64,000 nt of DNA from Desulfamplus sp. (GCA_015232455.1 JADFZQ010000012.1:31223-95222); one strand, 5' to 3'; shown: positions 1,549-17,918, numbered from the stretch's first letter. Program-made: numbers and translations. Notes: a model not told the origin generated them from the letters alone.

Positions 1549-4500
1549 TTAAGCAATACGTTCCTGTCTATACTGTAGAAATGGGATCACGACTCTGTTC
1601 TTGTTTCCTCCTAAAGCATCGTAGGTAATACTAACTACGGGGACTCCTGTTATTCTCTCAATTTTAGCACTCATAGCCTCTGTAACCAAGCCAGGACAGC
1701 AAAAAGACGGGCTTGTCTGAATAAACAGGGCAAGATCAGGATTCTCTTTAATGGTGTAGTGAATCTTTAAGATATTATCCATTGATTCGCCAGTATGTTC
1801 GGGCAATAATCCATAGGTTGCAAGAACGCTTTTAAAATCATCTGTGTAAGTGTGGTCAGGTTCATTAAAAAAAGGTTCAAAGTAACGGTAATAGCGTTTC
1901 TCAAATTGAGTCATTGTTGCAAGAATCGCTTTATTAGATATAAGACTTAAATATCTTCCCTCTTTAAACCACTTCTTAAAGTATGACTCTGCTATCATTT
2001 TTGCAAAACGATAATATGGAGTTGTTATAACTTCTCCGCCATGCTCTTCAATAAAATGAATCAAATTTTGATTCATAACATCATTATCTCTGACGTAAAA
2101 ATCACCAAAAATACCAACTTTGGGTCGGTTTTCTCTTGGATAGGTCTCTATAGTTTCAAATTGAGATAGTGCAATTTTAAGAGAATCTTCTCTTGTGGTT
2201 CTTCCTTCAAATGCCATATTTAAAATACGAACAGCCTGCTTTATAGCCTCGTCAGTTTGACCTTTTACCTTTTCGTAAGGTCGGATTTTGCAGCCTAATG
2301 ATCTTAAAAGCCCGCCAAACATATATGAAAAATAGGCATTTAATGAGGCACGAACAGAAATTTCACTAAATGAAAGCTCTCCTTTATAAACTCCTGCTTT
2401 TGCAAGATTAGCCTCAATCTCTCTTTTATCTAATGAAGTTTTATTTGATTTAAAGTTAATGCTGCCTAATTCACTGTTAGGGTTTGTTATCTCTTTGTTA
2501 GAAGAGATAATAGATTTTATATGGTGTGGGTAAAGTTTTATGTTGCACGATATTTCAGATTTGCTCATCCAAAGAAGACAATTTTCAGGATTTAGTTTTC
2601 TATTAACTATCGTTTGAATATAACCCGCTGCAATCGCATTTAACGGAATACATTGACCAGTATTTGTTTTAAGGCTTTGTTTAATTGTCTCATCACTCTC
2701 TTCCATTAAAATTGCATCATAACCTTCACCACGCAGGGTTGCTGCCAAAAATGAGCAGGTTATAGAGTCCCAATTTGGCATGATTATTGTTTTGCCTGAA
2801 AGATTATTCTCATCTTGAATGAGTGTTGATATTGACCAACCTCTTTTTTGAGACAAAGCTCTTTTCTGGGGCAGAGTGTTTTCAAGTTGAGGATTAAGAT
2901 GGGAAAGAGTTATAGTTTTATATTTAGAATAAGTTTTTGATTGGCTAAAATTTCTAAATGCCCTTACAGCAGCTTCAATACGTGTTTCATATCCAACACT
3001 TGAGTCATGCTCATCAAGTTCAAGCACAAGATATGGTTTATCGTGTGATTCCATTATTTTCTTAAAATAATCAACTCCAAATGAGTCTGGCGAACATTTA
3101 AAAGAGGTTATATAGACTGGAAATAGATTGTCTGTCCTTGCTGCAATTAAAGCTGCTTTAAGAATGGTTGCAGCGTGTTCCCAATGAATCTCTTTTAAGA
3201 GAGGTTCAATTTCAGTAAAATCGTGGTTCTCAAAATTAAGCATATCTTGAAAAAATGTGTTTATGCGTAAAGATGAGAAAATATCTGGAATTTTGCTGTT
3301 TAAAGATTCTGATAAAATTGTGTATGGTCTTCCTACAAGCAGCACATTAATGTCATTAGATATGTTTATCTGCTCTGCATAAAGTTCTTTAAGCTGATCT
3401 TCTGCACCTTTTTTCCACTCTAAAGCCTTATCATAAGCAGAACTTATATCAAAAAAGCTGATAAGAGAATCATCAAAAAATTTTACAAAATAGTCATCAG
3501 ATATTTTATCCTCAAAATCGCTGGCTGAATTTGTAATATTTTTAAAAGAACGATAAATCTCTATTTTAGTATAAAAATTTGTGTAAAGGTCTTTTACCAC
3601 AGGAGTCAGCAATCGCTTTTTTCTTATATTTGGCAAAGCTGCAATAACTGACGGAACATATTGTGTGTAGTAACAATATTGCCTTCTACCGCTCTTTTCT
3701 CTATTTTTATTTTCAAAATAGTATGGAAGAAAGACATAATCAGCTTTTTCCATAAGATAGTCAACATGACCATGAAGAGATGTGATTGGTGTGCAAAATT
3801 CAGCATTTGCAAGAGATCGACCACGCGTTACAGGCGATTTCATACGTTCACTGGTAATGGTTTTAATCCCAAGGTAGTTGAAAAAAATCTTCCAAAAATC
3901 TAAATCTTCAACAAGATGAAGTGCCGCTGGAATGCCGATTGTAAATGGATATTGAGTCTTGCATGGGTGAGGCAAAGTTACTGCCTTTTTTCTTGCTTTA
4001 AGAAGGTGGAAATTATTCTCTTTTGCTACATAATGATCTGTTTCATAATCTCTTCCGCACAAAAAGCCAAAAGCAACAGTCTCACTATCCATTTCAACTA
4101 TGGTAAGTTTACAGCTGTTTGTGCAAAGCTGGCAGGTCTCTTGACGAACAGGAATCTCTTTTTTCCAAAGATCAAAGCCTCTAAATTTACTCTTTGGATA
4201 CTGCTCTTCGCCAGTTAAACTTATCTTATTATAGTTATTAATCTTGTCATCAATATTAATCTGCTTTTCATCAACTTTTTTTCCTCCTCTATCTCCACAA
4301 ATAGAGCTTAAGGCAGGCATAGAGTCGTATATCTGCTCATTATTGCTTATAAATGCAACATGAGTGTGCATATCTTTTATTGTTAACGCAACACCAAGTG
4401 CACCAGTAAGGTGGCAAAACTTAGATACATGAATAGGTTTTTTAAGTCGTTGTTCAAAAGCCGCAACCAATGCTCTATTTTTTGCAGTTGCCCCTTGAAA

Positions 4501-6357
4501 TAAGATAGTCTCACCAATCTTTGCTTCGGTTGCAACTTTAGTCATATAGTTATCTCTGACTGAATGAAGAGCAGAAGCAAGAACTTCATTTACACTGTAT
4601 CCTTCAGATAGAAAATGGTTCATATCTCTTTCCATGAACACCGTGCATCTATCGCTTGATATTGGTGATTTTACAGATTCTGTCCGTGCTGAATATTCAG
4701 ATAAAGGGCAGCCAAGTTTCAAAGCCTGCTCTTCTATAAAACTGCCAGTTCCAGCAGCACATACAGTGTTCATAAACGATGATGTTACAACACCATTTTT
4801 CATGGTGGTAAATTTTGCGTCCTGACCACCAATTTCAATTATGGTGTCAACACTGTTATTTAGTTCATAAGCAGCTCTTGAGTGTGCTGTTATCTCATCA
4901 AGCACCAAATCAGCACCAATAACTCCAGCAGATAGCTTTCTTCCAGAGCCAGTAGTTCCACACCCAATTATGGTTATGTTGAAATTATAATCAGAGATAA
5001 ATTTATCAGCGGCTTTGAAAATTGACTGAACAGCCTGAACAGGTCTTGATGCAGTTCTTGTGTAAAAACCAGATAGAACAGTCCCTTTTTCTGTGATTAT
5101 AACAGCTTTTGTGCTTGTTGAACCAACATCAAGTCCAAGGTAGCAAGGAATTTGAGTAGTTAAAGAATCAGATTTCACACTTGATAAAGAGGTAGTATTT
5201 GAATGGGAAGAAGTAGTATTGGAAGCAGAATTATAAATAGATAAAAGAGTTGATGGCTCTTCATAAATGTCAACCTCAACCCCTTCAAATATCTCACTCT
5301 TAAACCCTTTAAAATCAGGGTAATCAGACAGCGTGAGAGTCAATTCAGGATAAAAAAATTTCTGCTGTTTCTCTTTTTCTATCAAAAGGTCATTTAGATT
5401 CTTGATATTTATTTTGCTGTATGGAGCAGCGGAATTTATTTGGTTATTTGGGCTGTAAAGCTCATTGTTATTTATATTATTATCTATGCTTTTTAGTTCG
5501 TCAGCCATGCAAAGAGCCGCACCAATTGCTCCATAAAGGTGAGAGTTCTCATCACAGATAAGAGATTCTGTGTTATCAAAATTATCATCTTTAAAGGTTT
5601 CTGTTAGAGATTTATTTTTTATATTTCCACCTGCCTGAGATTTATTAATCAAATCTTCAAGATGCTTTTTAACTGACCTATTTTTAGAAACACCACCACA
5701 AAAAATAATGGGCTTGTTGATGGTTTCATTAGTAAATAAAGTGTTGTAGATATTTCTTGCAAGCCCTTTACACAACCCATCGCATATTTGAGGGACAGAA
5801 AATCCCTCTTGCTGGGCATGTATAAGGTCAGTTTTTGCAAAAACTGCACAACGGGTTGCAATATCAGGAATCCTAAGAGTGTTCTCAAAAGCAGCATTGC
5901 TTAACTCTTCTGGGTGCGACAATCCAAGACGTTTGGATTGCTGGTCAAGAAAACTTCCAGTTCCAGCAGCACATGAGGTGTTGTTTTTAGAGCCGCAATA
6001 TTTTCCACATTCATCAAACAGACTTAAACTAAATTTTTCGCCGCCAACATTTAGAATTGCACCTATATTTTTATGAAAATGGCGAGCAGCCCTTATGATT
6101 GCAACTTGATCATCATAGGTTTGAACTCTTTTAATAGTGTAAGGAGTTGAAGAGGTTGCAGCAATATAATCAAATTTACTTAAATCAACTCCAGATAGTG
6201 CCGCTTCAAGAGCTTTTGATATATCGCCATGGTGAAAAGCACTTCCTTTGCATAAGATAGCTCCCAATTCAGAGTTTTTTATACCAGCATTTATACCAGC
6301 AATAGAAACAGATACAGAACCAACATCAACACCTAAAATATTTATCATTGTGCTCAT
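1549..6357 (-). CDS. Acyl-CoA dehydratase activase, double BadF/HgdC plus DUF2229 giant
   Basis: This 1602-aa protein joins two ASKHA ATPase domains of the BadF/BadG/BcrA/D (HgdC) family to a DUF2229/HgdB-like C-terminal half. Domain 1 (about 5-300) shows 'GVDVGSVSVSI', 'CAAGTGSF' and 'FCGGVSKNRSV'. Domain 2 (about 403-665) shows 'GLDVGSTSTKAV', 'EIGGQDAKF' and 'CAAGTGSF'. In 2-hydroxyacyl-CoA dehydratase activators the CAAGTGSF cysteine ligates the [4Fe-4S] cluster shared by the dimer; here a single chain carries both copies. A CxxCxxxC stretch (CQLCTNSC) and a 'CCPGLVTEA' motif follow. Related giants are common in anaerobes and usually orphan, with unknown substrate. No dehydratase alpha/beta genes are nearby. 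Met4 is an alternative start; the ribosome-binding site is weak. Confidence 0.85.
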   Translation of the reverse strand: MSTMINILGVDVGSVSVSIAGINAGIKNSELGAILCKGSAFHHGDISKALEAALSGVDLSKFDYIAATSSTPYTIKRVQTYDDQVAIIRAARHFHKNIGAILNVGGEKFSLSLFDECGKYCGSKNNTSCAAGTGSFLDQQSKRLGLSHPEELSNAAFENTLRIPDIATRCAVFAKTDLIHAQQEGFSVPQICDGLCKGLARNIYNTLFTNETINKPIIFCGGVSKNRSVKKHLEDLINKSQAGGNIKNKSLTETFKDDNFDNTESLICDENSHLYGAIGAALCMADELKSIDNNINNNELYSPNNQINSAAPYSKINIKNLNDLLIEKEKQQKFFYPELTLTLSDYPDFKGFKSEIFEGVEVDIYEEPSTLLSIYNSASNTTSSHSNTTSLSSVKSDSLTTQIPCYLGLDVGSTSTKAVIITEKGTVLSGFYTRTASRPVQAVQSIFKAADKFISDYNFNITIIGCGTTGSGRKLSAGVIGADLVLDEITAHSRAAYELNNSVDTIIEIGGQDAKFTTMKNGVVTSSFMNTVCAAGTGSFIEEQALKLGCPLSEYSARTESVKSPISSDRCTVFMERDMNHFLSEGYSVNEVLASALHSVRDNYMTKVATEAKIGETILFQGATAKNRALVAAFEQRLKKPIHVSKFCHLTGALGVALTIKDMHTHVAFISNNEQIYDSMPALSSICGDRGGKKVDEKQINIDDKINNYNKISLTGEEQYPKSKFRGFDLWKKEIPVRQETCQLCTNSCKLTIVEMDSETVAFGFLCGRDYETDHYVAKENNFHLLKARKKAVTLPHPCKTQYPFTIGIPAALHLVEDLDFWKIFFNYLGIKTITSERMKSPVTRGRSLANAEFCTPITSLHGHVDYLMEKADYVFLPYYFENKNREKSGRRQYCYYTQYVPSVIAALPNIRKKRLLTPVVKDLYTNFYTKIEIYRSFKNITNSASDFEDKISDDYFVKFFDDSLISFFDISSAYDKALEWKKGAEDQLKELYAEQINISNDINVLLVGRPYTILSESLNSKIPDIFSSLRINTFFQDMLNFENHDFTEIEPLLKEIHWEHAATILKAALIAARTDNLFPVYITSFKCSPDSFGVDYFKKIMESHDKPYLVLELDEHDSSVGYETRIEAAVRAFRNFSQSKTYSKYKTITLSHLNPQLENTLPQKRALSQKRGWSISTLIQDENNLSGKTIIMPNWDSITCSFLAATLRGEGYDAILMEESDETIKQSLKTNTGQCIPLNAIAAGYIQTIVNRKLNPENCLLWMSKSEISCNIKLYPHHIKSIISSNKEITNPNSELGSINFKSNKTSLDKREIEANLAKAGVYKGELSFSEISVRASLNAYFSYMFGGLLRSLGCKIRPYEKVKGQTDEAIKQAVRILNMAFEGRTTREDSLKIALSQFETIETYPRENRPKVGIFGDFYVRDNDVMNQNLIHFIEEHGGEVITTPYYRFAKMIAESYFKKWFKEGRYLSLISNKAILATMTQFEKRYYRYFEPFFNEPDHTYTDDFKSVLATYGLLPEHTGESMDNILKIHYTIKENPDLALFIQTSPSFCCPGLVTEAMSAKIERITGVPVVSITYDALGGNKNRVVIPFLQYRQERIA

Positions 6358-6443
6358 TTTATTATTCTTTATTTTTCAATTTACGTTTATGTTCAAATTC
6401 AGATTTATATTTATTAGATTTCCTGCATAACTAAAACTATATT

Positions 6444-6483
6444 CAGTAAAATCAAGGGTCAAACCCAAGTTTTGCAGAAAGTC
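6444..6483. repeat. Dispersed repeat copy 1 (CAGTAAAATCAAGG..AAGTTTT.CAG)
   Basis: The intergenic stretch CAGTAAAATCAAGG...CAAGTTTTGCAG recurs, diverged, at 32738-32775. Both copies are intergenic, on the same strand and about 40 bp long. They probably belong to a small non-coding repeat family. Confidence 0.4.
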
Positions 6484-6494
6484 AATTTCTGGAT

Positions 6495-6968
6495 TTATAT
6501 CTTTTCTTTTATCTCATTCCAAAAATCACGAACACCTCTACGCCAGCCATCTAAAAATAGCCTGCCGTATTTACCAATACCATCTGTCTTTTTTTCAACA
6601 AGCTCTTCAGAAGATAAAAGATTATTAAAATAACTGCCAAGAGTATCATCTTTAGCCATCTCTAAAGCTGAAGAGAGTCCAAGTGCATAGATAAGATCAT
6701 TGTAGTGGGCGTTCTTTGCCCATTGAAGCCCTTTTGCATGTCCATTTTCAGAGTAATTTACTTCAGCCTGTTTTTTTTCATTTTTTAGTCTATCTATAAT
6801 CGCTGCCATATCATGGTCTTCTTGCAATCTTCTTTGGAACTCCTCTTTTTTATGTATTGCCTCTGCTAAAGCATCTTGAAACATTTTGGAGAAATTAAAA
6901 GATTGCCGCCACTCTTCCATCTTTTCATAAAGCATGTCTGGAATGCTTAAAGTTATTTTACGTGTCAT
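6495..6968 (-). CDS. Ribbon-helix-helix-like protein of unknown function
   Basis: 157 aa. The N-terminus 'MTRKITLSIPDMLYEKMEEWRQ...FSKMFQDALAEAI' has the strand-helix-helix pattern of CopG/Arc-type DNA-binding proteins: a short beta strand with alternating K/T/S, then 'P..L...' and two helices. Residues 40-75 are charged and helical (probable coiled coil); the C-terminal half is not recognised. ATGGAG precedes the ATG. It lies in the same direction as, and 105 bp downstream of, the sigma-54 regulator, so it may be co-transcribed with it or be autonomous. No toxin-like partner gene is adjacent, which argues against a simple antitoxin. Confidence 0.65.
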   Translation of the reverse strand: MTRKITLSIPDMLYEKMEEWRQSFNFSKMFQDALAEAIHKKEEFQRRLQEDHDMAAIIDRLKNEKKQAEVNYSENGHAKGLQWAKNAHYNDLIYALGLSSALEMAKDDTLGSYFNNLLSSEELVEKKTDGIGKYGRLFLDGWRRGVRDFWNEIKEKI

Positions 6969-7073
6969 GTTTTTATCTCCATAACTGTTTTTTTAAGAGT
7001 ATGTTATATGTCGTGTTTCTATGCTTAATCAGTAGCAATACTATTTGAGTGGTGTTAATTTAGTTAATACGTA

Positions 7074-8498
7074 TTATTTTTTTGTGGTAGTGTCAAGAGA
7101 GTTTGTAAAATCGTTAATGTCAATCCCATATTTTTTAATTCGTTTCCATACAGTTACCCTGCTTACTCCAATAGCTTCAGCAACTTTGGATTGATTACCT
7201 TTTTCTTTAATCAACGCTTGTAATAATTCGCTTTTTTCATCAATTTTTATAAACTTACCATAATTACTATTTTTGTTGCTCATATCTTTACAAACATGTT
7301 CAGATGCAGTTTTAATCTCAGTATGTAGAACCTTATCAGGCAGATGTTCAGGTGTTATAATATTGCCATGACACAGCACAAAGGCATATTCTACCGCATT
7401 TCTAAGCTCTCTTACATTTCCAGTCCATTTATACATCATCATTCGTTTCATGGCTTCTGGTGAGAATCCCAAAATATTTTTACCAGTTTTTTTAGTATTG
7501 ATATCAACAAAATGTTGAACAAGAATAGGTATATCTTCATTGCGGGCGGATAAAGGAGGGCAGTTTACAGGAAAAACATTTATCCTAAAAAAGAGGTCTT
7601 CTCTAAATTTTTGTGATTGCATTAAAGATTCAACATCTCTGTTAGTGGCAGTAATAATACGAACATCAACATCAATAGAGCAGTTATCCCCAACTTTTTC
7701 AATTTTTTTCTCCTCAAGAACTCTTAGAAGTTTTACCTGTGTTGACATGGGAATATCTCCGATTTCATCAAGAAATATTGAACCCCCGTGAGCTGCTTCA
7801 AATCTGCCGATACGGTTTCTGTCTGCCCCTGTGTATGCACCTTTAACATGCCCGAATAGCTCACTTTCTAATAGATTTTCGTTAAGTGCTGCACAGTTAA
7901 CCTTTATAAATGGCTTGGAACTTCTAAGACCTGTCTCATGCACAGCTCTTGCAACAAGCTCTTTACCTGTTCCACTCTCTCCAAGAATCATTACAGGAGT
8001 ATCTGAAGCTGCAACATTTTCAATAACCCCAAATAAAGATTGCATAACAGGACTTTTTCCAATAATTCCATGAAATCCATCATCAAGCATATATGTTTTT
8101 TTAAGAGCCATAAGTTCGTTATTATAACGGATACTATCTGACATATCCTTTAAAGTCTCAACAGCACCAACAATATTACCATCATCGTCATATAGGACTG
8201 TGGCACTTTTTAAAATTTGAACAGAACGGTTTTGCTTGTTTGAAATAATGCACTTTTTATCTCTCATCATACCGCGGGAAAAAAGACCGCACCATAGTTT
8301 CCCCTCCCCTTTGCCTATAATTACGCAGCCAGTGCAGTTAAGAGTTCTGCATGATTTTCCCTCAAGCTCTTTTTCAGTGTATCCAGTCATAAGTTGTGCT
8401 GTGCTGTTAGATGCGATAATTTCACCTTTGGCATTAACTATCATCACGCCGTCGTGAACAGCTTCAATTATAGTTCTCCAGTATTTTCCAATATCCAT
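7074..8498 (-). CDS. Sigma-54-dependent transcriptional activator with cysteine-rich PAS domain
   Basis: 474-aa NtrC-type enhancer-binding protein. The PAS domain (about 8-125) contains five cysteines (C50, C55, C58, C70, C83), with C-x4-C-x2-C at its core, so an Fe-S, metal, haem or thiol-sensing role is possible. The AAA+ domain follows (about 150-385), with Walker A GESGTGKE (173-180) and GAYTGA (220-225), a conservative version of the GAFTGA sigma-54 contact loop. A Fis-type helix-turn-helix ([19 protein letters not shown]) lies near the C-terminus. There is no receiver domain, so it likely senses its signal directly. AGAGGAT precedes the ATG. It is divergent from the porin-cytochrome cluster, whose promoter is a clear sigma-54 site, so that cluster is its probable target. 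Confidence 0.92.
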
Positions 8499-8536
8499 TG
8501 TATATCCTCTGCATGTTGCGTTTTAAGTTGTAAACC

Positions 8537-8589
8537 ATTAACGTCTGTTATTAACACTTAACATTAACATAAGATAATACAGATTAACA
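8537..8589. promoter_or_regulatory. Candidate enhancer: ladder of ATTAACA half-sites
   Basis: ATTAAC[A/G] occurs at 8537, 8550 and 8563, exactly 13 bp apart, and again at 8583. This is 45-95 bp upstream of the sigma-54 -24 element, a usual place for activator binding. A fifth and sixth half-site form an inverted repeat at 8672-8690. The likely ligand is the Fis-type HTH of the divergent regulator (inference). Confidence 0.55.
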
Positions 8590-8631
8590 ATATTATATTG
8601 ATAATATAATATTTACTGATGGTTATCATCA

Positions 8632-8648
8632 TGGCACATTCATTGCTA
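8632..8648 (+). promoter_or_regulatory. Sigma-54 (-24/-12) promoter
   Basis: TGGCACATTCATTGCTA matches the TGGCAC-N5-TTGCW consensus, with the invariant GG (8633-8634) and GC (8645-8646) separated by exactly 10 bp. Transcription would start near 8658, about 60 bp before the DUF3373 porin ATG. Confidence 0.9.
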
Positions 8649-8671
8649 TATAATTAAAAATATAGGAAAAA

Positions 8672-8690
8672 TGTTAATCAGGTATTAACA
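8672..8690. promoter_or_regulatory. Inverted repeat TGTTAAT-N5-ATTAACA
   Basis: A perfect 7-bp inverted repeat with a 5-bp spacer lies just downstream of the predicted transcription start. It uses the same half-site as the upstream ladder. It could be an operator or a second activator site; its place in the leader would suit repression. Confidence 0.5.
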
Positions 8691-8718
8691 CAAACTTAAA
8701 ATCAATAAGGAGAAAAAG

Positions 8719-10599
8719 ATGGGTCTAAAACAGTGCCAAAAAACAGTGGAAAGGGGGAAAAAGGTTAAACTAAATACAATTTTATTTATACTGCTATTTC
8801 TTTGCCAAGTTTTTGCTGGTCAGAGCGTTTATGCCTCAGATAAAGCAAATAACAAAAAACAGGAGATTACTCAGAAGAAACATATTGAAAAAGAAGATGT
8901 GCAGATGCTCAAAAAACAGCTTGAAGAGATGAGCAAAAGCATGGAGCTGCTTAAGGAGAAACTTAACACTCTTGAGCAAAATAGAGAATCAGATAAACAG
9001 GAGATAGAAAAAGAGAGGCAGGCAGAAAAACAAGATCAAGAGCAAAATAAGCAGGATAGACAAAAGGATAAAGAAGATATTCAATACTTAAGTAAACGTG
9101 TTGACAAAGCAGAGCTGCATACTGCAACTGACAAGCTCTCTCTTGGGTTTGAACTTCGCTCTAAAGCTGATTCTATCCATTATGATGGAATGTTATCTGC
9201 TCCTTCTACGATGATTGGTTCTTTTTTTACACCTGTCTCACAAGGAGGATTTAATGGTGCAACTCTCAGCCAAGTTCAGCAAGGTATGCAAAACATGGCT
9301 ATGGCTGGAATGATTCCAGCTTTAGAGGAGAACGATATTGACAATGATGTCATATTTACAAATAAATTTCATCTTAATATGGAGTCAAAACTAAACTCTA
9401 ATTTAAGTTTTGCAGGAAGAATGGCTGCCTATAAAGTTTGGGGAGACTCTACAGGGGTAAAATTCAATCAAGGAAGTCTAGGAGACATTACCCTTGATGG
9501 TAACACATCATCTCTTCCACATGGAGATACGCTTCATCTTGAGAGAGCCTATTTTCTATACAGCAAATATCTAAATAGTGTCCCAATAAGTTTCTCTCTT
9601 GGCAGACGCCCGTCAACTAACGGTCCTCCTTTGGAATATGGAGAGTATGGCATGGAGGGAGGGTCTCCTTTAGCAACAATAATTAACTGGCAGTTTGATG
9701 GTGCTTCACTCAACTTTGGACTTGAAGATGCAACTGGTATTCCGGGAGCTGCTTTTAAACTCTGTTATGGAGTAGGATTTGAAGGAGATTGGGGAAATTC
9801 TTACTCATTGCAAGAGAGCCAATCTGAAGTTGAAGATGTAAATTTGTTTGGATTTATTGCCACCTTATTTGACAATGACTCTTTTAGTGCAGTTCTAAAT
9901 TATGCTCATGCGTGGGATATTACAGACGGCTTTACAGGGCTGACTGTTATGCCATTTATAGCATCAAAATCAGATCAGAACAAAGATGGCTCTTCTGAAT
10001 ATTATTTTACGCAAAACAGCGGCGGTTATATAACACGTATGGAGCCATCAACTGAAATTGGAGATTGGGACGCTGCAACACTTCTTATGAGAAAAAATCT
10101 TTATGAAGAGACAGAAAAAGATATTGATCTATTTCTTGCTGGCTCATGGAGTAAAACTGATCCTTCAAAAATATCTGCAAATCCATTCTATGAAATGATG
10201 GGAATTGGTCTATTGAGTTCAAATGGTCAACTTGAAGGGCAAGACGGTTATAGTATCTATGCTGGTGCTATATTCCCAATGCCTTTTGATGCAAAACTTG
10301 GACTTGAATACAACTGGGGTTCTAAGTATTGGTTTAACTTCACAGGTGCAGAAGATTCGCTTGTAGGCAGTAAACTTGCCACAAGAGGAAGTGTATATGA
10401 GGGATATTATATTCAACCAATATTTGGACAAAATTTCTTTGTAAGGTTAGGGACAAGGTTCTACGATTATAAATATACAGGCAGTGGTAACCCACTTGGT
10501 GAACCTGTAGAAATATCAGAGGCAAATTCACTAAATGGACTATTCCCAATTGCTGATAAAGTTTGGGATAGCTATTTAGCAGCAACAATGAGGTTCTAA
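8719..10599 (+). CDS. DUF3373-type outer-membrane porin with periplasmic coiled coil
   Basis: 626-aa exported protein. A signal peptide (about 15-40, ending near VYASD) is followed by a strongly charged coiled coil (about 45-140, E/K/Q/D-rich heptads such as KKQLEEMSKSMELLKEKL). The remainder is a beta-barrel ending in 'AATMRF'. The barrel carries features I associate with the DUF3373 family of Geobacter/Desulfobacterota outer-membrane proteins ('LHLERAYFLYSK', 'LGRRPSTNGPP', 'EYGMEGG'). These often sit beside multihaem cytochromes. It is the first gene behind the sigma-54 promoter, with AAGGAG before the ATG. It may anchor or wire a cytochrome across the outer membrane, or pass a solute. The family call is from memory of its motifs. 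Confidence 0.8.
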   Translation: MGLKQCQKTVERGKKVKLNTILFILLFLCQVFAGQSVYASDKANNKKQEITQKKHIEKEDVQMLKKQLEEMSKSMELLKEKLNTLEQNRESDKQEIEKERQAEKQDQEQNKQDRQKDKEDIQYLSKRVDKAELHTATDKLSLGFELRSKADSIHYDGMLSAPSTMIGSFFTPVSQGGFNGATLSQVQQGMQNMAMAGMIPALEENDIDNDVIFTNKFHLNMESKLNSNLSFAGRMAAYKVWGDSTGVKFNQGSLGDITLDGNTSSLPHGDTLHLERAYFLYSKYLNSVPISFSLGRRPSTNGPPLEYGEYGMEGGSPLATIINWQFDGASLNFGLEDATGIPGAAFKLCYGVGFEGDWGNSYSLQESQSEVEDVNLFGFIATLFDNDSFSAVLNYAHAWDITDGFTGLTVMPFIASKSDQNKDGSSEYYFTQNSGGYITRMEPSTEIGDWDAATLLMRKNLYEETEKDIDLFLAGSWSKTDPSKISANPFYEMMGIGLLSSNGQLEGQDGYSIYAGAIFPMPFDAKLGLEYNWGSKYWFNFTGAEDSLVGSKLATRGSVYEGYYIQPIFGQNFFVRLGTRFYDYKYTGSGNPLGEPVEISEANSLNGLFPIADKVWDSYLAATMRF

Positions 10600-10641
10600 A
10601 TATTAAACTATATAACAAAATAATAAGAGGAGATTTCTAAA

Positions 10642-11004
10642 ATGGGGAAAAAAGTATTTAGTTCAAAAGTGTGGGTTTCATTTGTAGTGATGGTTGTTCT
10701 TGCATCATTTACAGCAATAACTTTTGCAGGAGAACCAACTGGAGATAAAAGAAAGGGCAAATATTCATATCGTAAGGTTTATAAAGCGTGTATGGAGCGT
10801 GGAGAAGTAGCATCAGAAAGACCATTTATAAACCCTTCAGACAAGACAATGGCACAGTGGCAGAGAGTTTTTGAGACAAAAGATTTTGCAGAGTTTAAAT
10901 GCAGTGCAGAGTGGGGAAAATTAAGTGCAGAGGAGATTGAAGATATTTATTCATACCTTTATGGTGGTGCTGCTGACTCTCCATCTCCAGCAAAATGTAA
11001 ATAA
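10642..11004 (+). CDS. Cytochrome-c-like small periplasmic protein lacking the haem-binding CxxCH
   Basis: 120 aa with a signal peptide cleaved near ITFAG. The body 'NPSDKTMAQWQRVFE..........LSAEEIEDIYSYLYGGAADSPSPAKC' resembles small monohaem cytochromes encoded beside DUF3373 porins, as I recall them. Where those have CxxCH, this protein reads Y-K-A-C-M: the first Cys and the axial His are replaced. Three Cys remain (YKAC, FKC, AKC). It therefore probably binds no covalent haem and may be a structural or chaperone-like subunit. AGAGGAG precedes the ATG. It lies 42 bp after the porin gene in the same direction. That it is a degenerate cytochrome is inference. Confidence 0.7.
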   Translation: MGKKVFSSKVWVSFVVMVVLASFTAITFAGEPTGDKRKGKYSYRKVYKACMERGEVASERPFINPSDKTMAQWQRVFETKDFAEFKCSAEWGKLSAEEIEDIYSYLYGGAADSPSPAKCK

Positions 11005-11053
11005 AAATTTCATTTTTAATACAGCCTCCTTTTAAGTAGAGTATTCAACTTGT

Positions 11054-11086
11054 AGATTTGACAACCTTTAAAAGGTTGTCAAATCT
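11054..11086. promoter_or_regulatory. 33-bp near-perfect palindrome within the operon
   Basis: AGATTTGACAACCTTT (11054-11069) pairs exactly with 11071-11086 around one central base. No T run follows, so it is unlikely to be a full terminator. As RNA it would be a very stable hairpin between the small protein and octahaem cytochrome genes, suggesting mRNA processing or differential expression. As DNA it could be a large operator. Confidence 0.55.
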
Positions 11087-11143
11087 GTGGCTTTGGTAAA
11101 AGCTAAACCATAAAACTTAACTAATAGATATGGAGCGTTGAGC

Positions 11144-12871
11144 ATGGAAAACCGTAAAATCTCAAATAAGCTATCCATTTTAAATCAATTGATAATAGTA
11201 ATGCTCTTTTCTTTATTTTATTTAGGTGTTGCTGATGCTATTTATGCTTCCACAGAGACACAAGGTAAAAACATAGCTGCTCAAGATACTAATAGAGAAG
11301 ATGCACCGGGTAGAAAATTTGCAAAGCAGGCAGTAAAAAGAGAACATAGGTGGATTACAACAGATCACTCAAAACATGAAGCACTTAAAAAAGATTTCAT
11401 GTCAGGTTATGAGATAACAAAGGCTTGTCTATCATGCCACTCTGAAGCATCATCGCAGTTTCATAAAACAATCCACTGGACATGGCTTGCCTCTGAAAAT
11501 GGAGGAAATTTAGACAATAAAAATATCAGCACTCAAGATAACAAAAAAGATCGCAGATATGGAAAAGCAGGTTATTCAGTAAATAATTTTTGTATATCAA
11601 GCAACAACATGCAAGATAAGGCGTGCCTAAGCTGCCACACGGGCTGGAATGGAAAAAATGGAGAGGTAAACTGCTTAAAATGTCATGGTATGTCAACATT
11701 CAACTATAAAGAGGCTTTTGAAGATATAAAAGCATTTGCAGCAGAAACTGATGACCCAGAAAGTAAAGAGATTATGAAAGAGATTCAGGCAGAAGTTAAA
11801 GAGGCTGTAGGAAAAATAGGGCTGCCTCAGCGAAACAATTGCGGCGAATGCCATTTCAAAGGTGGTGGAGGTGATGGTGTAAAACATGGAGATTTAGATA
11901 CATCTCTTATAAAACCAAATAGAAACCTTGATGTCCACATGGGAGTTGACGGCAAAAATTTTACCTGCACCCGTTGCCACACAACCACTAATCATAATAT
12001 TGCTGGCAGAATTTATACAAACCCCGCTGTTGAGATTAACAAAAGCCTTCTTGAAGATGATCTTGCACCAAAAATCACCTGTGTATCATGCCACAGCGAA
12101 ACACCGCATAAAACAGCTTCTAAAATGAATGATCACACTAATAAAGTTGCATGTCAATCATGCCATATACCTGAATTTGCAAGAGTCAATCCAACTAAAA
12201 TGAGTTGGGATTGGTCAAAAGCTGGAAAAGTTAAAGATGGCAAACCTTATAGTATTGTTGGTGATTTAGGTAAAGATACTTATTTGTCTATCAAAGGAGA
12301 GATGATCTGGGAGAAAAATGTAAAACCTAAATATTTCTGGTCAAATGGTTCGCAAACCAGCACAACTGCTGTAGATGTTATTGATCCGTCAACTGTTGTA
12401 AAGGTGAGCCAGCCGGTTGGAGATATGAATGATCCCAATTCCCGCATATTTCCGTTTAAGCTGCATAAAGGTAAACAGCCTTATGACAAGGTACACAAAA
12501 CACTTCTTGCTCCACTTCTTTCAGGAGAAAAAGGTTATTGGACTACACTTAATTGGGACGAATCAATTAAGATTGGAAATGAAATGGTTGGATTGCCATT
12601 TTCAGGTGAATATGATTTTGTTGAGACAACTTATGTATTTCCAATTACCCACATGGTTGCACCAAAAGAGAAAGCCCTTAAGTGTGTAGAGTGTCATATT
12701 AATAATAGCGGACGACTTGAGGAACTTACAGGATTTTATATGCCGGGAAGAGATAAAGCATCAATTATTGACTCTTTTGGCTGGCTTGCTGTTTTGGCTT
12801 CTTTGGCAGGTGTAACTCTCCATGGATTAGGAAGATTTTTCACTCGAAACGGAAATGGTAAAGATAAATAG
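11144..12871 (+). CDS. Octahaem c-type cytochrome, tetrathionate reductase (OTR) family
   Basis: Exported protein of about 575 aa with exactly eight CxxCH haem sites (CLSCH, CLSCH, CLKCH, CGECH, CTRCH, CVSCH, CQSCH, CVECH), near residues 97, 162, 178, 235, 276, 314, 338 and 515 (TTG numbering). The spacing, including the long gap before the last haem, fits the octahaem tetrathionate reductase family. That family reduces tetrathionate, nitrite or hydroxylamine in vitro, so the substrate here is open. A signal anchor lies at 15-38. A C-terminal transmembrane helix (FGWLAVLASLAGVTLHGLG) would tether it to the membrane next to the cytochrome b. The ORF track begins at a TTG (11138); the ATG at 11144, 8 nt after TGGAG, is the better start. 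Confidence 0.92.
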   Translation: MENRKISNKLSILNQLIIVMLFSLFYLGVADAIYASTETQGKNIAAQDTNREDAPGRKFAKQAVKREHRWITTDHSKHEALKKDFMSGYEITKACLSCHSEASSQFHKTIHWTWLASENGGNLDNKNISTQDNKKDRRYGKAGYSVNNFCISSNNMQDKACLSCHTGWNGKNGEVNCLKCHGMSTFNYKEAFEDIKAFAAETDDPESKEIMKEIQAEVKEAVGKIGLPQRNNCGECHFKGGGGDGVKHGDLDTSLIKPNRNLDVHMGVDGKNFTCTRCHTTTNHNIAGRIYTNPAVEINKSLLEDDLAPKITCVSCHSETPHKTASKMNDHTNKVACQSCHIPEFARVNPTKMSWDWSKAGKVKDGKPYSIVGDLGKDTYLSIKGEMIWEKNVKPKYFWSNGSQTSTTAVDVIDPSTVVKVSQPVGDMNDPNSRIFPFKLHKGKQPYDKVHKTLLAPLLSGEKGYWTTLNWDESIKIGNEMVGLPFSGEYDFVETTYVFPITHMVAPKEKALKCVECHINNSGRLEELTGFYMPGRDKASIIDSFGWLAVLASLAGVTLHGLGRFFTRNGNGKDK

Positions 12872-12916
12872 AATCTTGCTAAAAACCAACCAATCAAAAA
12901 GGAGCTTTAAGATACT

Positions 12917-13579
12917 ATGAGCGATAATAAAATAATCAAAATATATCTTTATACAAAGTTTGAGCGATTCTGGCACTGGCTTCAAGCAGCAATGATCATC
13001 ATTTTGCTTATCACAGGTATTGAGATTCACGGAGCATTTACGCTTCTTGGATATGAAACGGCTGTAGAGGTTCACAATTTCATAGGTCTTTCTTGGCTTA
13101 TACTATTTGCGTTTTTTGTCTTCTGGTTATTTACTACTGGAGAGTGGCGTCAATATATTCCAACAACAAAAAAGCTGTTTTCTGTGATTGTATATTACTC
13201 TGTTGGAATTTTTCAAGGTAAGCCGCATCCTGTGCAAAAATCACCAGGAGCTAAACATAACCCGCTACAGAGGCTTACATACCTTGCACTTTCAGCAATG
13301 CTGCTTCCGATTCAGATGACAACAGGGGTTCTTTATTACACATGGAATCTATGGGGAGGTGCGGCTATCCCGCTTTTATCTGCAATGCCTCTGCTCTTTG
13401 TTGCTATTTTACATACTTTAGTTGCATTTATGCTTTTATCATTTTTGATAGTTCATGTTTATATGACTACAACAGGACATTCACTTTTCAGCCATATATC
13501 TGGCATGATTACTGGTTGGGAAGAGATTTACGAAACTACTAAAGTGCAAGAGTGGGAATTGCCAGCTCGACATAAGTAA
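12917..13579 (+). CDS. Membrane di-haem cytochrome b (b561/Ni-Fe hydrogenase cytb type), quinol-oxidising partner
   Basis: 220 aa with four predicted transmembrane helices. Candidate b-haem histidines are H20 in FWHW, then EVHNF, LHTLV and IVHVY/TTGH, the pattern of the cytochrome_b561/formate dehydrogenase gamma superfamily. AAGGAG precedes the ATG, 45 bp after the octahaem gene. The expected role is to oxidise menaquinol at the inner membrane and pass electrons to the octahaem cytochrome (inference from family and context). A strong terminator follows, making this the last gene of the sigma-54 cluster. Confidence 0.9.
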   Translation: MSDNKIIKIYLYTKFERFWHWLQAAMIIILLITGIEIHGAFTLLGYETAVEVHNFIGLSWLILFAFFVFWLFTTGEWRQYIPTTKKLFSVIVYYSVGIFQGKPHPVQKSPGAKHNPLQRLTYLALSAMLLPIQMTTGVLYYTWNLWGGAAIPLLSAMPLLFVAILHTLVAFMLLSFLIVHVYMTTTGHSLFSHISGMITGWEEIYETTKVQEWELPARHK

Positions 13580-13617
13580 AACATTGGTGGCAATTATAAT
13601 TTTTATAGCTAATCGAT

Positions 13618-13662
13618 AAAAATGGGAATTATTGCAATAAAAAGCAATAGTTCCCATTTTTT
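13618..13662 (+). terminator. Intrinsic terminator of the cytochrome cluster
   Basis: AAAAATGGGAATTATTGC and GCAATAGTTCCCATTTTTT form an 18-bp stem with one G-U pair and an 8-nt loop, followed by T residues. Confidence 0.85.
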
Positions 13663-13823
13663 GTCTCAAAACAGCTAAATTTTCGGATGAATCATGTTTC
13701 ATTTAATCTTGAGTTATAGTATATAACGACCTTAAATTTTTCATAGATGTTATAGAAAATTAGATTGTTTGGAAATTTCTATGAGAAAAATTTTAAGAAT
13801 CTAAAATAGCTACGGTGGTATTG

Positions 13824-14615
13824 ATGATAATAAAAAGTGTTGAAAATTTTGGCTTTTGGACAATCCAACAAATTGAAAGCGTTGGCAGAATCTTTATTTT
13901 TCTGTTTATCGGGCTTTTTCATATTTTTACTTTTCCTTTTCAGATATTCAAAATTATTGAACACACATGGTTTATTGGCACTAAATCAATGGTTGTCATT
14001 ATGTTGACGGGTATCTTTACAGGAATGGTGTTGGGTCTTCAGGGATACTACACCCTTATAAAATTTGGTTCTGAAGGAATGCTTGGTTCGGCTGTTGCTT
14101 TGACTCTGATTCGTGAGCTTGGTCCTGTTCTCACAGCAATAATGATTACAGCAAGAGCGGGTTCCGCAATGGCTGCTGAGATTGGAGTTATGCGGATTTC
14201 AGAACAAATAGATGCGCTTGAGACTATGAACATCAATCCAGTTAGATTTATATTCAGCCCAAGAATTGTGGCATCTATAATAAGTTTCCCTCTTCTGACA
14301 GCATTGTTTGATGTGATAGGTATTTTAGGAGGTTATGTTACTGGCTCTCTTATGCTTGGGATTAATGGTGGAATTTATATTTATAGAGTAAATGACAGTG
14401 TTATTATGGCTGACGTTATTGGAGGATTTGTAAAATCTCTTGTATTTGCAGTTGTGGTTACAACAATATGCTGTTCTCAAGGATATTTTACCCATCTTCA
14501 GACAAAAGGCGGGTTTGGTGCAAAAGGAGTAAGTTTTTCAACTACTACTGCTGTTGTAAACTCCTGTGTTATGATTTTAGTATTTGATTATGTAATAACT
14601 TATCTTCTTTTATAG
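13824..14615 (+). CDS. mlaE: MlaE-type phospholipid ABC transporter permease
   Basis: About 263 aa, integral membrane. The MlaE/YrbE signature region is clear: 'GLQGYYTLIKFGSEGMLGSAVALTLIRELGPVLTAIMITARAGSAMAAEIGVMRISEQIDALETM'. With MlaF and MlaD it forms the inner-membrane complex that moves phospholipids between inner and outer membranes. The longest ORF starts at GTG 13815. The ATG at 13824, about 6 nt after GGTGG, is preferred. First gene of a rightward mlaEFDCA cluster; MlaB is absent. Confidence 0.93.
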   Translation: MIIKSVENFGFWTIQQIESVGRIFIFLFIGLFHIFTFPFQIFKIIEHTWFIGTKSMVVIMLTGIFTGMVLGLQGYYTLIKFGSEGMLGSAVALTLIRELGPVLTAIMITARAGSAMAAEIGVMRISEQIDALETMNINPVRFIFSPRIVASIISFPLLTALFDVIGILGGYVTGSLMLGINGGIYIYRVNDSVIMADVIGGFVKSLVFAVVVTTICCSQGYFTHLQTKGGFGAKGVSFSTTTAVVNSCVMILVFDYVITYLLL

Positions 14616-14739
14616 AATCTCCTCTCTCAATTCATAAAAGATTTTGATGCTATTTTTTGATATGACAGTATATAGTGTAAATTTTAAAAAAGATAAGTTT
14701 AAATTAGAAAAAGCTAATAAAAAAGATAAATAGATACTT

Positions 14740-15492
14740 ATGAAAGCACCTTTAATTGAATTTATAGATGTTAGAAAAAGTTTTGGAAGCAACCACGTTA
14801 TGCAGGGAGTAAATCTCTCCATATATGAAGATGAAATAACAGTTATCATTGGTAAGAGTGGTTCAGGAAAAAGCGTGCTTTTAAAGCATATTATAGGGCT
14901 TATGCACCATGATTCAGGAAAAGTAATATTTAAAGGAGAAGAGATCTCTTCTATGTCTGGAAAGAGGAAAGAAGAGTTTAAACGCAATTTTAGCTACATG
15001 TTTCAAGAGAATGCACTCTTTGACTCTATGAACATTTATGAAAATATTGCTTTGCCTTTGGCTGAAACTTCCCGTTTTTCCAAGCAAGAGATAAAAAAGA
15101 AAGTTGAGATGAGAATGGAGCAGCTTGAGATTCAAGGTACATCAAACAAATATCCAGCCCAACTTTCAGGAGGTATGAAAAAAAGGGTCGCCCTTGCAAG
15201 AGCTTTAGTAACTGAACCATCAATTGTTCTTTTTGACGAACCAACAACTGGGCTTGATCCTGTAAGAAAAAATGGTGTTCACGCAATGATTAAGTCATAT
15301 CAGCAGATGTTTGGATTTACAGCGGTAATTGTAAGCCATGAGATACCAGATATATTTCAGATAGCTCAAAGAGTTGGTATGATTGAAAAAGGAAAAATAA
15401 TATTTCAAGGCTCTGCTGAGGAAATAATGAAATCTGATTTAAGTGAAGTAAGCAAATTTATTAATGGCAGCGGAGATTTTATGGAGTATTAA
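14740..15492 (+). CDS. mlaF: MlaF-type phospholipid ABC transporter ATPase
   Basis: 250-aa ABC ATPase with Walker A GKSGSGKS (about 40-47), Q-loop region 'YMFQENALFDSM', signature LSGGM, Walker B 'IVLFDEPTTGLDP' and H-loop 'IVSHE'. 'QENALFDSMNIYENIALPL' and 'LSGGMKKRVALARAL' are typical of MlaF rather than of other importers. It drives lipid transport through MlaE. The 124-bp gap after mlaE carries no convincing gene, and the ribosome-binding site is weak, so a separate promoter is possible. Confidence 0.93.
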   Translation: MKAPLIEFIDVRKSFGSNHVMQGVNLSIYEDEITVIIGKSGSGKSVLLKHIIGLMHHDSGKVIFKGEEISSMSGKRKEEFKRNFSYMFQENALFDSMNIYENIALPLAETSRFSKQEIKKKVEMRMEQLEIQGTSNKYPAQLSGGMKKRVALARALVTEPSIVLFDEPTTGLDPVRKNGVHAMIKSYQQMFGFTAVIVSHEIPDIFQIAQRVGMIEKGKIIFQGSAEEIMKSDLSEVSKFINGSGDFMEY

Positions 15493-17459: not shown

Positions 17460-17918
17460 CTATTTTACTTTAAAATTTGCACTTATTTTAAAGACATCTG
17501 TAGCTGGAAGGTTTAAAATATCATCAACTCCTGTTTTTTTTGATATTTCTTTAAGGTTCTTTTCGATAATATTCATAGATTCAGCTATAAACGTAAACCA
17601 TATATTATATCTATGGCTTCTCATATAATTATGTGTAACTCCAGAATATTTATTAACTACGGTTATAAATATTTCCAACTTGTCGTCAGGCACTGATGCT
17701 GCACAGAGTGTGCTGAAAAAACCAAGTTTGTATGGTCCAAAATTTCCTCCAATACGTCTTATAATCCCATCGTTTTTCATTTTTATAAGTCTTTCGAGCA
17801 ACTCATCTTCAGAAATACCAAGCTCTTGAGATATTAATTTGTATGGATTAGGAGCAATAGGGAAAGAGGTCTGCATCCTGTTAAGGATGTTCTTATCTGT
17901 ATCATCAATTTGAATCAT
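17460..17918 (-). CDS. ahbA: Siroheme decarboxylase subunit, AhbA-like (Lrp/AsnC fold)
   Basis: 152 aa. An AsnC/Lrp-like helix-turn-helix (about 5-60) and a RAM-like second half match the AhbA/NirD-L family: 'MQTSFPIAPNPYKLISQELGISEDELLERLIKMKNDGIIRRIGGNFGPYKLGFFSTLCAASVP', then 'GVTHNYMRSHRYNIWFTFIA'. In sulfate reducers AhbA with AhbB decarboxylates siroheme to didecarboxysiroheme on the alternative haem pathway, whose haem would feed cytochromes such as the one nearby. The 'HNY.R...YN.WFT' motif separates it from ordinary Lrp regulators. AhbB is not adjacent, which is unusual. A true transcriptional regulator is the alternative. Confidence 0.8.
   Translation of the reverse strand: MIQIDDTDKNILNRMQTSFPIAPNPYKLISQELGISEDELLERLIKMKNDGIIRRIGGNFGPYKLGFFSTLCAASVPDDKLEIFITVVNKYSGVTHNYMRSHRYNIWFTFIAESMNIIEKNLKEISKKTGVDDILNLPATDVFKISANFKVK

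Follow-up and report, generated by a model that had tools for sequence, protein, structure and literature searches.

Among the closest described relatives of the system reported here is the octahaem tetrathionate reductase (OTR) of Shewanella oneidensis (PDB 1sp3, TIGR04315), with eight CXXCH motifs, a lysine (Lys) ligand on haem 2 and an adjacent cysteine (Cys); purified OTR reduces tetrathionate (PMC11024163, PMC4484225). We analyzed a five-gene locus built around a protein with the same three features, found in a 64,000-nucleotide stretch of Desulfamplus sp. DNA (GCA_015232455.1, JADFZQ010000012.1:31223-95222; hereafter the window, meaning this whole stretch). In contrast to the Shewanella protein, the OTR of this locus has a C-terminal membrane helix. 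It is encoded with a cytochrome b, a porin and a subunit without haem under a dedicated sigma-54 switch, and several paralogues in relatives carry a putative selenocysteine (Sec, encoded by TGA) at the Cys position. In Thermosulfurimonas dismutans (TDIS_1882-1883), an OTR is likewise anchored via an adjacent cytochrome b; neither a regulator nor a porin, a rhodanese or a subunit lacking haem is mentioned in the available part of that report (PMC4911364). The extHIJKL cluster of Geobacter sulfurreducens is arranged as rhodanese, porin, small protein (104 aa) and Sec-containing multihaem cytochrome, plus a cytochrome b; compared by description only, its cytochromes have other numbers of haems, its porin is of another family, its accessory genes are different, and it is Fur-regulated (PMC5877670). 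Finally, PhsABC, PsrABC and TtrABC use electrons from quinol to reduce thiosulfate, polysulfide or tetrathionate in the periplasm, much as we propose here, but the present module includes no molybdoenzyme and catalysis would take place at haem instead.

An earlier sequence-only reading of the window had judged that the module looks undescribed. For the whole regulated set, we found no account in the open-access literature of a sigma-54-switched module with a haem-less cytochrome, a triple rhodanese and DUF3373, and nothing on DUF3373 together with a cytochrome beyond porin-family work. Some of its parts have been described: the pairing of OTR with cytochrome b in T. dismutans (PMC4911364), Sec in listings of TIGR04315 (PMC13188914) and a comparable gene set in the Geobacter ext cluster (PMC5877670).

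We propose, with a probability of roughly 55%, that the product of the operon is an inducible quinol:sulfur-compound oxidoreductase that would act on S-S bonds (tetrathionate, polythionate or sulfane sulfur) in the reductive direction. A sulfur compound is favoured over a nitrogen oxide as the likely OTR substrate because the neighbours of the locus in relatives handle sulfur, because one position beside the catalytic haem is occupied only by Cys or putative Sec, and because otr of Ca. Sulfomarinibacter is up 36-fold with tetrathionate (PMC8528874).

The source organism is a sulfate reducer of the genus Desulfamplus (family Desulfobacteraceae), placed there by its kinship to D. magnetovallimortis and Desulfamplus sp. 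nHLHbin7; its genome is 4.35 Mb and 98.5% complete. The five genes (an activator, divergent from four co-directional genes) lie as the sequence-only reading had placed them. We infer that the four genes are co-transcribed as one sigma-54-dependent unit. The module ends at the cytochrome b gene, since the unrelated Mla lipid-transport operon that follows it was not seen beside the module loci of relatives.

The octahaem protein matches TIGR04315 over the entire family model (positions 1-440 of 440; 508.5 bits against a cut-off of 375); its start codon is an ATG, with an in-frame TTG at 11138. It aligns to 1sp3 over residues 79-526 (326.7 bits), placing C150 on chain residue 64 (Cys64 in Shewanella) and K247 on residue 153, which we take to be the Lys ligand of haem 2. 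The published ligand of this catalytic haem is a highly conserved Lys (PMC11024163), and K247 is Lys in all 148 OTR-family rows that we aligned. The C150 column of the same rows holds Cys in 130, an in-frame TGA in 17 and a gap in one (98, 12 and one, respectively, after dropping rows at least 90% alike). We infer that TGA is decoded as Sec here, and TIGR04315 is listed among GenBank-annotated selenoproteins without a motif in a 2026 review (PMC13188914). Exclusive occupation by Cys or Sec argues for thiol or selenol catalysis at this position. A C-terminal helix with an invariant LHGLGRF is common to the OTRs of module members. Paralogues of OTR in which an in-frame TGA falls precisely on the Cys64 position (loci L002, L006, L007, L009, L010, L117, L159, L163, L165-L167, L175, L196, L198 and L199) likely represent selenoprotein octahaem cytochromes, some of them with cytochrome b or iron-sulfur (FeS)/NrfD partners.

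The octahaem protein alone, through an alignment of module members, served to collect related loci, so that the sample leans to this subfamily; upstream counts refer to the 61 OTR loci with at least 3.5 kb of upstream sequence, many of them from related genomes and hence not independent. A divergent activator is found in 52 of these 61 and the small protein in 53; in 63 of 74 loci the OTR gene is followed by one for cytochrome b, in agreement with the proposed pairing of cytochrome b with a periplasmic OTR. The conserved association of the genes in other Desulfobacterota, on which the sequence-only reading had made itself depend, is thus borne out by synteny as well as by the promoter (see below). 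As to the gene order that it expected, activator, small protein, OTR and cytochrome b recur, but the first gene is commonly a triple rhodanese (43/61) and not DUF3373 (18/61), which is thereby ruled out as a universal first gene. Either or both are present in 55/61 loci, and they tend toward mutual exclusion (both in 6, rhodanese only in 37, DUF3373 only in 12, neither in 6; Fisher p 9e-5, with no correction for kinship), DUF3373 replacing or accompanying the rhodanese. In the window and in D. magnetovallimortis, DUF3373 is present and the rhodanese is missing; Desulfamplus nHLHbin7 has a rhodanese after cytochrome b and no DUF3373.

Sulfur-handling neighbours in relatives include the triple rhodanese, DsrE-like and YeeE/YedE proteins (both in Desulfosarcina-type loci) and PhsA-like proteins; some related OTRs have PhsA-like or NrfD-type partners. 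In seven loci (L110, L111, L121, L122, L153, L183 and L184) DsrE-like genes lie upstream of the small protein, the one tested being just under the Pfam cut-off, and two of these loci (L111 and L122) contain YeeE/YedE-type genes as well. In L170, a PhsA-like molybdoenzyme and an FeS subunit lie between the triple rhodanese and a CXXCH-type small protein, and this set adjoins a 12-haem OTR fusion.

The sequence-only reading had also pointed to an excellent -24/-12 promoter and a dedicated enhancer-binding protein, and both withstand scrutiny. The promoter element, TGGCACATTCATTGCT, matches TGGCACN5TTGCW exactly; no second exact match occurs within the 64 kb of the window, where 0.10 would be expected, and the whole genome has 12 (reversed control 0). 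In 42 of 52 orthologous regions the element recurs in the interval that separates the activator from the first gene, compared with 0.04% in shuffled sequence. The 220-bp intergenic region of the window contains six TTAACA/TGTTAA half-sites (0.39 expected), four of which sit 48-81 bp upstream of the promoter element. Relatives have 3.38 half-sites per 200 bp upstream of the promoter (0.26 expected), with at least two in 41/45 loci and a peak at 80-160 bp upstream. These half-sites are predicted enhancers (upstream activating sequences, UAS), probably bound by the divergent activator. The 11 remaining perfect sigma-54 sites of the genome are all without half-sites, so this operon is probably the activator's only target. 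Chance or an annotation artefact is ruled out by the synteny, promoter and enhancer statistics.

The activator comprises PAS, PF00158 (235 bits) and PF02954 (HTH_8, 37 bits) domains, and no receiver domain was found by domain scan. Five cysteines of its PAS domain (C50, C55, C58, C70 and C83; spacing C-x4-C-x2-C-x11-C-x12-C) are invariant in 58 orthologues, which would be compatible with a possible metal-cluster or thiol sensor.

The small protein begins with a signal-like segment and lacks CXXCH, with YKACM at the corresponding site, and retains C50, C87 and C119. It matched no family in a domain scan; its counterparts at this place in the loci of other lineages still carry CXXCH and match the cytochrome family PF13442. 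CXXCH is absent in 68 of 84 homologues and present in 16, and in a tree of the 84 rows these 16 make up one side of a single branch, a split that also holds when the motif columns are left out (98% of bootstrap trees). With the root of the tree not fixed, the natural reading is that the small protein would be a former mono-haem cytochrome c, its haem lost rather than gained, which refines the haem-lacking subunit of the sequence-only reading. Among the 68 haem-less rows, C119 is kept in all and C50 and C87 in 67, both being gone together in the remaining one. As 68 homologues are without the site and 67 keep C50, a frameshift or a mis-called start is ruled out as the origin of haem-lessness. 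Structural matches of the model (predicted local distance difference test, pLDDT, 87.7) are nearly all cytochromes c, so that it resembles the class I fold, but they are weak (best Z 5.4), and a Foldseek search gave no significant match. The protein was found in 169/389 genomes in a class-wide search and in 43/395 in a phylum-wide one.

The barrel that the sequence-only reading placed at the outer membrane is supported; the DUF3373 protein matches PF11853 at 397.6 bits against a Pfam gathering score of 26.1. The DUF3373 model, of modest confidence (pLDDT 60.6, for which we claim no strand number), consists of a coiled coil (residues 56-132) and a beta barrel, for which OmpF-type porins and OmpM1 are the top structural matches. 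Because the barrel resembles diffusion porins, if at modest confidence, the protein looks like a solute channel, an ordinary porin with a coiled coil, which we prefer over an electron conduit. DUF3373 is repeatedly found with octahaem cytochromes: it adjoins other such cytochromes in more distant Desulfobacterota, which suggests that the pairing is old. In loci L217-L221, a DUF3373 barrel occurs with a distant 7-8-haem cytochrome carrying a MNGND motif, and L219 and L221 additionally encode a small protein of about 110 aa of another kind.

Cytochrome b matches PF01292 (85.9 bits); its best NCBIfam match is thiosulfate reductase cytochrome B, at 94 bits and below the cut-off, and its eight His are conserved in 71 of 71 orthologues. 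Between the small-protein and OTR genes lies a stem-loop with a 31-nt palindrome core. A terminator is ruled out at this place since the stem-loop has no T tract, a feature that points instead to processing or attenuation, possibly setting the ratio of upstream to downstream products. A significant stem of different sequence occurs at the equivalent place in 19 of 33 relatives tested, and there is no Rfam match within positions 6000-15000. Outside the module, the window encodes a 1602-aa fusion of BcrAD/BadFG ATPase and DUF2229 of the CoA-enzyme activase type (1549-6357, minus strand), which adjoins the module, and a NirDL/AhbA-like sirohaem decarboxylase protein (17460-17918, minus strand).

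Table 1. Features of the Desulfamplus octahaem cytochrome module, in window coordinates.
Feature	Position	Strand	Basis
PAS / AAA+ sigma-54 activator, Fis-type helix-turn-helix	7074-8498	-	domain matches
Four TTAACA/TGTTAA half-sites, probable enhancer (UAS)	8551-8589 (8551, 8558, 8564, 8584)	.	half-site count
Sigma-54 -24/-12 promoter TGGCACATTCATTGCT	8632-8647	+	exact TGGCACN5TTGCW match
Two more half-sites, 3' of predicted transcription start	8672-8690 (8672, 8685)	.	half-site scan
DUF3373 outer-membrane protein: signal, coiled coil, porin-like barrel	8719-10599	+	PF11853, structure model
Haem-less class-I cytochrome-c-like secreted protein, 120 aa	10642-11004	+	homologues, tree, model
Strong stem-loop between small-protein and octahaem genes	11052-11088 (perfect palindrome 11055-11085)	+	no T tract
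Octahaem c-type cytochrome, OTR family	11144-12871	+	TIGR04315, 8 CXXCH, C-terminal membrane helix
Cytochrome b561 / PhsC-type subunit, quinol-oxidising	12917-13579	+	PF01292, conserved His

In the mechanism that we propose, the activator would sense a sulfur or redox signal, bind the half-sites and open the sigma-54 polymerase. The DUF3373 porin would admit a small anionic solute to the periplasm, and cytochrome b would oxidise menaquinol and feed the membrane-tethered octahaem protein. At the Lys-ligated haem 2, the C150 thiol would attack the S-S bond of tetrathionate or another polythionate/sulfane sulfur, giving a thiosulfonate or persulfide that would afterwards be reduced and released. 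The haem-less protein would no longer be an electron carrier, and our guess is that it docks on OTR or carries sulfane sulfur or a thiol. In most relatives, a periplasmic triple rhodanese would pass on or remove sulfane sulfur, and the window organism may have lost or replaced it. A bolder version, to which we give only tentative credence, is a haem-dependent S-S reductase whose chemistry is done by a redox thiol or selenol next to the Lys-ligated haem, with a haem-less cytochrome acting as a cysteine-based sulfur carrier and a cysteine-cluster sigma-54 sulfur sensor; together they would give sulfate reducers a respiratory route for sulfur intermediates distinct from the molybdenum reductases.

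Several points weigh against a sulfur-compound reductase. The window locus itself is without any sulfur-transfer gene, so the conclusion on the substrate rests on kinship, and no triple rhodanese was found in the window's own genome, which gave weak single-domain matches only. Reductive versus oxidative direction, moreover, is not readable from sequence, and nitrite and hydroxylamine are likewise reduced in vitro by the purified Shewanella enzyme (PMC4484225). This last activity, together with the interaction of Shewanella OTR with STC in a nitrite pathway (PMC4484225) and an OTR fold in the HAO class (PMC7096707), would fit a reductase that is fed by cytochrome b and detoxifies or respires nitrogen oxides, possibly under nitrosative stress. 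We consider this unlikely, as the inspected neighbourhoods showed no recognisable gene or regulator for nitrogen oxides but have rhodanese, DsrE-like and YeeE/YedE genes instead; among the acceptors listed by the sequence-only reading, the neighbourhood thus retains sulfur (tetrathionate) and disfavours nitrite and hydroxylamine. Nor does nitrite chemistry need a Cys/Sec-only position beside haem 2, and NrfA is not known to have such a position.

The same sulfur partners lend support to the opposite direction, in which sulfide, polysulfide or thiosulfate would be oxidised (for example thiosulfate to tetrathionate) and the quinone pool reduced, since rhodanese, DsrE-like and YeeE/YedE proteins also occur in sulfur oxidation and disproportionation. 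Bifunctional TsdA shows that the thiosulfate/tetrathionate couple can run both ways (PMC5146829). However, OTR haems have low potentials, comparable with the MmcA range (-100 to -450 mV; PMC11024163), against about +198 mV for tetrathionate/thiosulfate (PMC8528874), which favours reduction; we consider the oxidative direction as unlikely as nitrogen oxides. Reduction of selenite, tellurite or another metalloid oxyanion, as in Geobacter, is considerably less probable: extHIJKL has like parts in like order, and loss of ExtI lowers selenite and tellurite reduction (PMC5877670). However, ExtI is assigned to phosphate-selective porin O/P and not to DUF3373, the ext cytochromes, by published description, are different (5, 10 and 12 haems), and ext itself has no settled physiological substrate. 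Least probable of all is extracellular electron transfer, with DUF3373 as a conduit barrel taking electrons outwards: barrel-cytochrome pairs are the usual conduit design and DUF3373 does adjoin multihaem cytochromes, here and beside other octahaem proteins, but the low-confidence barrel model resembles diffusion porins, and where porin-cytochrome conduits combine outer-surface and periplasmic multihaem cytochromes the module has one multihaem cytochrome only, with a conserved C-terminal helix and an adjoining cytochrome b.

The physiological role of the OTR family is unsettled, and the conserved gene set suggests a route to finding one. Its own switch, sulfur-transfer partners, predicted operator and Cys/Sec-only position make the role of OTR directly testable in Desulfosarcina, Desulfocicer, Desulfospira or D. 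magnetovallimortis, several of them available as isolates. The change in haem binding on a single branch would also represent a case of a cytochrome c retained in its operon without haem.

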